Shown: positions 41,033 through 45,699 of the stretch, piece by piece
Layout: each line of letters opens with the position of its first letter
Position numbering within the stretch: position 1 is the stretch's first letter
Source: Deltaproteobacteria bacterium
Lineage (GTDB): Bacteria; Desulfobacterota; Binatia; Binatales; Binataceae
NCBI GenBank assembly: GCA_021780225.1
Contig: JAJXZF010000044.1
Location: 1 to 45,699, forward strand
Length of the DNA: 45,699 bases
Direction: 5' to 3'
Notes under the pieces: model-generated
Databases searched by the model: none
Seen by the model: only the letters and a program-made list of their open reading frames with translations
Told to the model about the DNA's origin: nothing
Position numbers and translations under genes: made by a program

Positions 41033-41181
41033 CTTTGGCAATAGTTTTATCGTCTTCAGGGCAATTTCTCATATCAGGCGGTTGGGTGCGATTCCCACCG
41101 GGGGATTAGGTTGCCTTTAGCCGATGCGCGCAGGGGCGCGTGAACCGGCTCTAAGGCCGGCCAAGGGTGACGCGAAATAGA
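41033..41181 (+). promoter_or_regulatory. Structured 5' leader of rpoD (possible riboregulator)
   Basis: About 150 nt between the predicted start site and rpoD. Elements seen: a closing stem AGGGCAA (41058-41064) with TTGCCTT (41111-41117); inside it a hairpin GGG-TGCGATT-CCC (41084-41096) whose 7-nt loop resembles a T-loop and is followed by ACCGG; then AGCCG (41119-41123), which can pair with CGGCT (41146-41150) around a GCGCGC hairpin. The alternative CCGGC-TCTAAG-GCCGG hairpin (41145-41160) uses the same bases and ends two nt before AAGGG, the probable ribosome-binding region. This mutually exclusive arrangement is typical of cis-regulatory RNAs. The 5' module resembles the FMN riboswitch, but its conserved 3' half is lacking. 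No ligand is proposed. Confidence 0.45.
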
Positions 41182-42945
41182 ATGAAATCCAAGTACGAAG
41201 GCAAGGATTTGCAGGGTCTTGTCGACCTCGGCCGCGAGCAAGGCTATCTGACCTTCGATCAGGTCAACGATTTCCTGCCGCAGGACGTCGCCTCGCCGAC
41301 GGACCTGCGCGCCGCGCTCGAAAGCTTCGAGGACATGGATATCAAGGTCCTCGACGAAGTGCCCGCCGGGAGCGACGACACCGAGCTCGAGGCGGAAGGC
41401 AAAGAGGAACCCGAAGAAGCCGCTGAGCCGGTGGCCGAGGATTCGCTTGCGGAATCTTCCGACCCGGTGCGCCTGTACCTCAAGGAAATGGGCAACTTCC
41501 AGCTCCTTTCGCGCGAGCAGGAAGTCGAAATTGCCAAACGGATCGAGGCTGGCGAGAACGAGGTCGCGGACGAAGTGTTGCGTTCTCCGGTGATGCTCGA
41601 TTTCGTCATCACGCTGGGCGAGCAGGTCGAAGCCGGCGAAGCGGATCTGACCGGAGTATTCGAGGAAAACGAAGAAGCGTCGTCCGAATCGGCGGAAGAA
41701 GAGCGCGGCCCCGAAACCAACGAAAAGCATCTGCTCAAGCTCGAAGCCGCGGTCAAAAAGCTCAAATCGTTGCGTTCGCGCCTTGATGAGGCCGAAGCCA
41801 AGCTCAAGGAAAAGCCCAAAGGCCCGAACAAGTCCAAACTTGACAAATCGCTCGTACGCTATCACGAAGGAATCAAAGAGGAGCTTGAAGGGCTCGACCT
41901 TTCGCGCCGCGTTTACGACGAAGTGATCGAGCGGATGCGGCGGATGCTAAGCGAGGCGCGACGGTCGCAAAATCTCATCCTGCACTATGAAGAGGCGACC
42001 GGCCGCAGCAAATCGCAGCTGATGCGCGAAGCCTCCGACGTCGCCGACCGGCGCCATCTGCTGAAGGTAAACGGGACCCGCGAAAACCTGCTCGACATCG
42101 CCGCGCGCATCAAAGATGCGCAGAGAATGACTCGCGAGGTCGAGAAGACAGTCAAAGCGCCGATCGACGAATTCGCCCGCTCGATTGAAACGATCGCGTC
42201 CGGCCAGGACAAAAGCCGCCGCGCCAAAAAAGAGCTGACCGAGGCGAATTTGCGCCTGGTGGTGAGTCTCGCCAAACGCTACACGAACCGCGGCTTGGGC
42301 TTCCTCGACCTGATTCAGGAAGGCAATATCGGCCTGATGCGCGCGGTGGACAAGTTCGAGTACCAGCGCGGCTACAAGTTCTCCACCTACGCGACGTGGT
42401 GGATTCGCCAGTCGATGTCGCGCGCGATCGCCGACCAGGGCCGCACCATCCGTATTCCGGTGCACATGGTCGAAACCATCAACAAGCTGCTGCGCGTCAC
42501 CCGTCTGCTGGTGCAGCGGCTCGGCCGCGAGCCGGGGCCGGAGGAGATCGCGGAGCAGATGGAGATGCCGCTGGACAAGGTTCAGCGCGTGCTCAAAATC
42601 GTCAAGGAGCCGATTTCGCTCGAAACCCCTATCGGCGACGAGGAAGAAAGCTCGCTGGGCGATTTCGTCGAGGACGAGCTGGCGCCGTCGCCGGTCGAGG
42701 CCGCGATTCAGGGCAACCTCGGCGAGCAGACCCGCAAGGTGCTGGCGACGCTCACGCCGCGCGAGGAACAGATTCTGCGGATGCGCTTCGGGATCGGGCA
42801 GAAGACCGACTACACGCTCGAAGAGGTCGGCAAGCAGTTCGCCGTCACGCGCGAACGAATCCGCCAAATCGAGGCCAAGGCGCTGCGCAAGCTGCGCCAG
42901 ACCGGCCGCTCGCGCAATCTCGAAGGCTTCATGGAGCGCGAATAA
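41182..42945 (+). CDS. rpoD: RNA polymerase sigma factor RpoD (sigma70)
   Basis: The 587-residue primary sigma factor starts at ATG 41182; GTG 41167 is in frame but gives no family-like sequence. Region 1.1 is at the N-terminus, followed by an acidic linker (to about 92). Region 1.2 [21 protein letters not shown] is near 94, then a long charged non-conserved region. Region 2 (about 352-430) includes [30 protein letters not shown] and TYATWWIRQ for -10 recognition. Region 4 helix-turn-helix [26 protein letters not shown] is near the end. It appears monocistronic; dnaG, its frequent neighbour, is absent. A structured leader precedes it. Confidence 0.97.
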
Positions 42946-43073: not shown

Positions 43074-45641
43074 TCATTGCAGGGGCGGCAGCACCACCTG
43101 ATACGCCGGCAACGACGACGGGCCGAAGTACGAAACCGAGCCGGGCGTGACGCTGTAGGGACCAAAGGTCCCGCCCGGCGCGTCGGTCCAGACGTCGGCG
43201 TCGAGATACGGCGGCTCGGTGCAGACCGGATTCAGCGGCGTCTCGACCGTCAGCGCCGGCGAGCCGCTCGGCGCGCTGAACGTCTCGCAACGGTTGCTTT
43301 CATCCTTTTCGGCGAGGCCGGAGAAGATATTGACCAGTTCGTCCGGCCCGCCGACATTCACCGCGCCGGCACTGGACGCCGTGGCGTCAAGGTTCGGATA
43401 AAGGTACGCTGCATAATCCGCCGGATTTTGATCCGCGCCGCGATACGCCGCGAGAAAGGCGTCAACCTCTCCGCCATAACACTGCGCGCTGCAAGAACCG
43501 CCGCTACCAGCGACGGGTGTAATCGACGCCCCGATTTTGTAGGGCGTGGCGTCGCCGCTCCTATAGGTATGCGCCGCCAGCCACGCCTGCCCGTAGGTAT
43601 TGCAAAAGCCGGATGGCACGGTAACCGTGTCGGCGCCGTTCTGATTCGCCAGCGGCAGAAGCGCAAATCCCGGCGGCAGCGCCGGCGTGTCGCCGCTGGT
43701 CTCATTGCCGACGATTATCGGCGCCACGATAACGTCGCCGTTCGTAACGCCGCTCGGCGGCGCGATGCTCGCGGTCGCCTGATAGGTGTTGCAGGAGGGG
43801 AAGTACTCCGAATCCCCCGCCGTCGCGGCCACGAACCGCACCTGCGCCGGCAGCAGGTAGGACCCCGCGCCGTGGGTCGCGATCGCGATGGTTCCCTGCG
43901 TGTTTTGTTCGATATCGGTCACCGGAACCGCCGGCACGATTCCCATCCCGAAGTCGCTCCAAGTGGTTCCGCCGTCGGTGCTGCGGAACACGCCGATGTC
44001 GGTGCCGGCGTAGAGCGTGTTGCCGGTCGAATCGGTGTTGTCAACCAGCAGCCGCAGCACCGAGAGCGGCTCGCCGTTGTAGCTCGGCGCTGAACTCAGC
44101 AGCGTCCATGTAGGGCTTGTAACGCAGCCGCTGGTGGTCTTGAAAATCGTCCCGGTCGGCGTGGTCGAACCGGCCGTCGCGAACATCGTCACGTACACCA
44201 CGGCATGGCCGCTGCTGGGGTCTTTGAACGGGCTGACGGCGAGGCTGGCTGGAAACTGCGAAGCGGTCTGCGAAGTCAGACTGCCGACACCTGTACCGGT
44301 AACGTCTTTCCACGCCGCTCCGGTGTTGTAGTTGGCCTGCAAGCTGCACGACACCTGGTAGGCGCCGGCGCCGTTGGCGGCGGAGAGCGCCCACGCCACG
44401 TTGCCGTCGTAGGGGTCGAAGGCGATGTCTTCGAGTGCGCAGCTTCCCTTACCCACGACGCAATTGGTCCCGGTCAGGTTCTTCTTGGTCTGTATGGTCC
44501 AGTTCGGCGCGCCGGAGGTGGAGAAAGTGAGCGCATAGACCTGATGCGCGCCGAGCAGCACACGATGCGTGGTGACAGTCGAAGGCGAGACCGTGAAAGG
44601 CGGCAACGGCGCTGCCAGATCAGTCTGGGTTGTCGCTTGCAGCAATGATGAGATGTCGGTCCATGATTGTCCGCCGTCCGTCGAATACGCGAAGGTGGGC
44701 AGGCCGCCGAAGCTGAAATAGGTATGGAAGGCGTAATTCTGATCAATCGGCGCGAAGCTCACCACGCCGGCGTCGCCACCGTCGGTCTAAGCCCAGGCGG
44801 GCGCGCCGGTATAAAGTTCCGTGCCGTTGTCCTGGAAACCGCCCAAGACGGTGACTGGCGGCCCGGAGTTAATCGCCACGCCATAAAGTTGCGCCGAGTT
44901 CAGACCACCGTTGAGATCGGTGAACGAGCTGCCGTTCCAATAGAAAAGGCCGCCATCGTCACCAACCCAATAATTGTTGCTGTTGAAGGGATCGTAAGCG
45001 ATTGCGTGCTGATCGGCGTGCACCCCCTGATCGCCAATAAAGCTCCAGGCGCTGCCGCCGTTCGCGCTCTGATAGAGGCCGACGCCGCCGAAGAGCACGG
45101 TGGAGGCGCTGGACGGAGACACCGCCAGCGCCTGATCGTAAAACGCTTGCGAATCATTGCTAGGCAAGGTCCCATCGATTGTGACTGAATTGGGAGGATT
45201 AATGAAGGACTCCGACGGCACAGTCTGCTGGCTCCAGCTACCGCCCAGATTGCTGGAAATGTAAAAACCGGTGTAGGCATTGAACGGATTCAAAGTCGCG
45301 CTGCCGAACATGGCGTAAACCGTCGTGCCGCCGCCGGCCAGGCTGATGCGGCCGATCGAGCCGGGGCAGCCACCGGTCAGTCCATTACACGCGCCGCGGG
45401 TCAGCACCGCCGACCAGTTGGCGCCATAGTCGCTCGACATGTAAACGCCCGGCACGCCGCTGATCGCCGCGAAGCCATCGACCGCGACGAAAATGTCCGC
45501 GCCGGAAGCGGTCGGCAGAACCAGGATGTCGTCGATCGGACAGGGGTCGTTATTCGGGTCCACCACGCAACTGCCTAGCAGGCTGTTGAGGAAGGGGTTT
45601 GAATACTCAGTTTGATCGCCGCTGTGGTGATGATGGGCGGC
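43074..45641 (-). pseudogene. BNR/Asp-box beta-propeller protein interrupted by in-frame stop codons
   Basis: One minus-strand frame runs from 45641 to the stop at 43074 and is broken once by TAG at 44787-44789. An in-frame TGA also lies at 45642-45644, and the frame beyond it is open to the window edge. Asp-box (BNR) blades occur on both sides of the TAG: SSDYGANWS, SSNLGGSWS and SANGGSAWS before, STDGGQSWT and STDGGTTWS after, so both parts belong to one propeller. GGFQDNGTELYTGAPAWA leads to the TAG and continues TDGGDAGVVSFAPIDQN, as homologues do. The C-terminal 250 residues form a separate Gly/Ser/Pro-rich domain. Either a decayed gene with CAG-to-TAG and TGG-to-TGA changes, or recoding; single-base assembly errors are possible. 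The N-terminus lies at or beyond the window end. Confidence 0.75.
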
Positions 45642-45699
45642 TCAGTTGCCGGGTTCAGCGGTGTTCGCCCGCCGCGGCGAGCGCGGCGGGGATGTGGAG

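Follow-up and report, generated by a model that had tools for sequence, protein, structure and literature searches.

The gene of an apparently secreted beta-propeller at the end of the window, i.e., the whole 45,699-nucleotide stretch of DNA analysed here, is a recently inactivated, ordinary dead gene and not an example of stop-codon readthrough. There is little doubt about the cause: the gene lay between rpoD and topA and was very probably split, not long ago, by an IS5-like element that expanded in this genome at CTAG-type sites. With the split the propeller function was presumably lost. The window is the entire contig C115 of an assembly of 118 contigs, and its relevant features are compiled in Table 1.

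Table 1. Features in and next to the propeller pseudogene (window coordinates)
Feature	Position	Strand	Remarks
rpoD-like sigma factor gene	41167..42945	plus	syntenic anchor
Beta-propeller (Asp-box-like) pseudogene	43074..45578	minus	C-terminal ~830 residues, 5' part missing; from frame reading and homology, weak Pfam matches
Natural stop TGA of the pseudogene	43074-43076	minus	
In-frame TAG of the pseudogene	44787..44789	minus	sense codon in 17/17 aligned homologues
CTAG site	45575..45578		junction of gene and element
"A" end of the IS5-like insertion sequence	45579..45699		transposase presumably minus-strand and reading towards the gene; contig stops inside the element
"Upstream TGA" of an earlier note	45642..45644	minus	inside the element tail, outside the gene

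The propeller frame and its homologues

The minus-strand frame of the pseudogene is open apart from a single interruption, the TAG, and the encoded protein contains Asp-box-like motifs. It resembles the BNR/Asp-box beta-propeller proteins (PF02012, PF15899, PF15902), but this is a resemblance only: the Pfam matches, which include the sortilin type (PF15902, Sortilin-Vps10), all stay under the gathering cut-offs (PF02012 BNR, 19.3 bits versus 27; PF15899 BNR_6, 12.9 versus 27), and no Asp-box repeats above the curated threshold were found in the window protein. A sequence search of the PDB with the homologue L011 gave no match at E <= 0.01, and Rfam yielded none at its gathering threshold between 42900 and 45699.

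The read-through frame was matched in 27 of the 57 genomes examined, the genome of the window (G000) included; in G003 and G004 there was no propeller match. Protein comparison reveals homology to the same family on both sides of the TAG, as an earlier note on this DNA had proposed. Seventeen homologues, drawn from the 19 best-scoring places outside the own genome, were aligned by script; two places in G023, for which there was no locus, and weaker, mostly partial matches were left out. The column of the TAG contains A (6), Q (3), E (3), V (2), T, K and F, and never a stop.

The nearest homologue is that of the congener G001, with 76% identity over residues 206-830 and no stop; it adjoins the same rpoD gene. 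Opposite the TAG it has CAG (Gln), which agrees with the proposed single transition from CAG to TAG. This orthologue begins at residue 206, where its contig ends, so the intactness of the G001 copy is unproven. A scan of named genomes produced one relative, JAJXYM010000116.1 (Deltaproteobacteria bacterium isolate BP6.bin86), with 75% identity; probably it is the record of contig C117 of G001. The TAG itself is real at the level of the assembly, and it could be an assembly error. A gene killed by insertion that merely acquired its TAG through faulty sequencing, binning or assembly is nevertheless unlikely. A single base is concerned, the orthologous codon is one transition away and the evidence is that of an assembly; yet nothing points directly to an error, and further mutation is to be expected in a dead gene.

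A comparison of the window with G001 gives an overall dN/dS of 0.29; the value is 0.17 for the stretch before the TAG (just 53 codons) and 0.28-0.30 for the one behind it, against 0.08 for rpoD. During most of the history shared with G001, purifying selection acted on the propeller gene; the ratios do not date the break.

Other members of the family are also disrupted. The homologues L023 (G005:C91:4019-5835) and G022:C83:1915-3731 are broken into two frames at an identical position and have near-equal scores; the frame change was observed directly for L023. Their likeness across two genera reflects either transfer or cross-binning. A further homologue, L025 (G026:C14:69326-70268), is spread over several frames and apparently is a decayed gene, too.

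The insertion sequence at the window edge

The sequence that belongs to the gene starts at the CTAG site; beyond it, the homologues carry other sequence. What follows in the window is repetitive. For the last ~126 bases of the window, the genome has 12 additional matches of 98-100% identity over 97-126 bases, and the last 121 bases constitute one end of an element, which is found at 13 contig ends of the own genome. A pattern search allowing up to three mismatches detected 13 "A" ends of this kind and 13 "B" ends. The two types are alike in their first 11 bases and differ thereafter; read inward, all 13 of each start with the terminal inverted repeat CAGGCTGTTGA. As far as they extend, the 13 A ends are identical to the letter, and so are the 13 B ends. 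All 26 reach the end of their contig after 93-127 bases. The sites in front of them are CTAG (17), TTAG (4), ATAG (2), CTAA (2) and CTAT (1).

A and B would be the two ends of one element, and we read them as the ends of an insertion sequence of about 13 copies at which the assembly broke. In the own genome the element was never assembled whole, nor were the two ends of any one insertion paired. Translated in one of its frames, the B end yields MRGEERRQRAMLMI, which we take to resemble the start of a transposase. In relatives, an IS5-type transposase has its C-terminus shortly before the A end. The best family match is NF033581 (transpos_IS5_4), that to NF033551 (IS1182) being weaker; the transposases beside the A end score 58.9 bits (L043, in G007) and 133.3 bits (G032:C103) against a cut-off of 140. 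The own genome contributes one degenerate fragment of an IS5-type transposase, on C18. The IS5-type copies L148, L156 and L162 (G032), L149 (G006) and L150 (G002) do not match the ends of this element.

The probable affiliation to the IS5 family is based on these transposase fragments beside homologous ends, on the CTAG-type sites at all 26 ends and on the many identical copies; what departs from a typical member is that the complete element with its transposase is not assembled in the own genome and that the fragments of relatives stay below the curated cut-off. A 4-bp duplication of CTAG is described for ISKpn26, an IS5-family element, in PMC8023600.

G004 has 15 matches (L042 and 14 other places) to the initial ~45 bases of the A end; apparently, a related element has proliferated there.

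The insertion sequence also accounts for a second stop that the earlier note had assigned to the gene. The TGA in question belongs to the repeat shared by the 13 contig ends, which rules out the proposed change from TGG to TGA in the gene. The His-rich stretch AAHHHHSGDQTEY, taken for gene sequence at the time, is indeed encoded by letters of the window, but it arises by chance when the tail of the element is translated.

Since the ends of the element are identical, its expansion is probably recent, and a recent break would explain why the propeller frame is otherwise so clean. The earlier note had seen in this cleanness room for readthrough; recency would make that argument dispensable.

The missing N-terminal half

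Homologues on sufficiently long contigs have about 300 residues ahead of the point where the window gene starts (239 to 389, counted from the stop to the start of the match). In a protein search, the N-terminal stretch of L011 finds such a sequence in the own genome at C29:114-539 (E 3.2e-39, 61%). This N-part has a signal-peptide-like start, as judged by eye, and abuts an A end (C29:1-126), being cut at a CTAG of its own. In the translations of the 13 B-end flanks, no N-part was recognised by eye. Along 16 homologues, the N-part and the C-part occupy consecutive stretches, with a gap of 64-89 residues between them (75 in 6 of the 16). Retained are thus ~152 N-terminal residues on C29 and ~830 C-terminal residues in the window; the middle 64-89 residues were not found in the own genome by protein search.

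A contig end of G001 carries sequence that shares 68% identity with the N-part of C29 and the small gene upstream of it, while the protein search for the N-part at that end gave a weak match (E 0.008). Positions 111-2212 of C29 (L080) comprise a tandem duplication of the gene of a small Cys-containing, apparently secreted protein together with the propeller N-terminus.

The neighbourhood argues for a common origin of the two pieces. The gene after the N-part on C29 is presumably topA-like, and the one next to the C-part in the window we take to be rpoD-like. The congeners G003 and G004 have rpoD and topA converging at a short distance (2.7 kb and 7.8 kb, respectively), oriented as one would expect of adjoining contigs C115 and C29. 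Because of this arrangement in two congeners the contigs are probably adjacent and carry one split gene, the join itself not being assembled. Proximity is seen in only these two of the nine genomes searched for both anchors, and neither of the two has a propeller match. In G002 the distance is ~214 kb; for the remaining six, either the genes lie on separate contigs or no rpoD turned up.

Alternatively, the N-part on C29 might come from a paralogue, and the N-terminus that belongs to the window gene would be unassembled or deleted. Duplications have occurred, as a second, degenerate copy of the N-part with TGA and TAA (C29:1111-1524) attests. On the other hand, a search of the genome at E <= 0.001 yields a single C-part, rpoD and topA are close in the two congeners, and strand and order of the pieces are consistent. 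A paralogous origin is therefore improbable. In both cases, it is the element that truncates the window gene.

How the gene was probably broken

Copies of the IS5-like element would have broken the gene between rpoD and topA at CTAG-type sites. One simple insertion does not suffice, because both halves of the gene meet an A end. In the simplest picture, which we infer from the ends, two copies in opposite orientation would flank a short middle piece. This piece, with its ~200-270 bp and two element ends, would amount to a contig some 450-500 bases long, which may have been discarded because of its size. The TAG is an additional nonsense change within the same split gene, and the TGA is part of the 3' tail of the element. 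Of the decay that the earlier note had favoured, the dead gene with its TAG therefore stands, now with the split by the element; the second stop, by contrast, is an artefact of a contig that ends in that element.

Presumably, the element is read on the strand of the C-terminal fragment and in its direction, so that the fragment could be transcribed from the element. That this happens and that the part downstream of the TAG is then translated from the GTG at 44763-44765, just past the stop, into a shortened propeller without secretion signal is a very remote prospect.

Is the TAG read through?

Readthrough or recoding would mean that the TAG (and the TGA) are read as amino acids and that the gene is functional. 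The otherwise open frame with homology on either side of the TAG and the dN/dS values speak for it. The latter, however, are silent on the time since the break. The TGA belongs to a mobile element, some 300 N-terminal residues have been cut away, and the homologues show varied sense codons instead of a conserved in-frame stop. The search for suppressor tRNAs, as suggested in the earlier note, turned out negative: none of the 39 tRNA matches of the own genome (ARAGORN) has a stop anticodon, in a set that is incomplete, as it lacks an obvious tRNA Ile-GAT; the window itself contains no tRNA. Moreover, TAG is a common terminator here: 14 of 36 long frames picked mechanically in the window, which are not curated genes, end in it (13 of 35 without the one at issue). 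With the N-terminal part gone, no stop-anticodon tRNA detected and TAG ending other frames, readthrough is not needed, and we consider it extremely improbable.

Known systems and implications

Pseudogenes made by insertion sequences and cut by contig ends are familiar from short-read assemblies. The window contig, which breaks ~121 bases into the element, conforms to this pattern; nothing notable sets it apart. For common assemblers, shared contig ends at repeats, with a length of maxK or maxK-1, are described in PMC10914622.

The finding amounts to ordinary recent gene loss. It removes one candidate for stop-codon readthrough and exposes a trap: where a contig ends in a mobile element, the tail of the element can resemble an in-frame extension of the gene.
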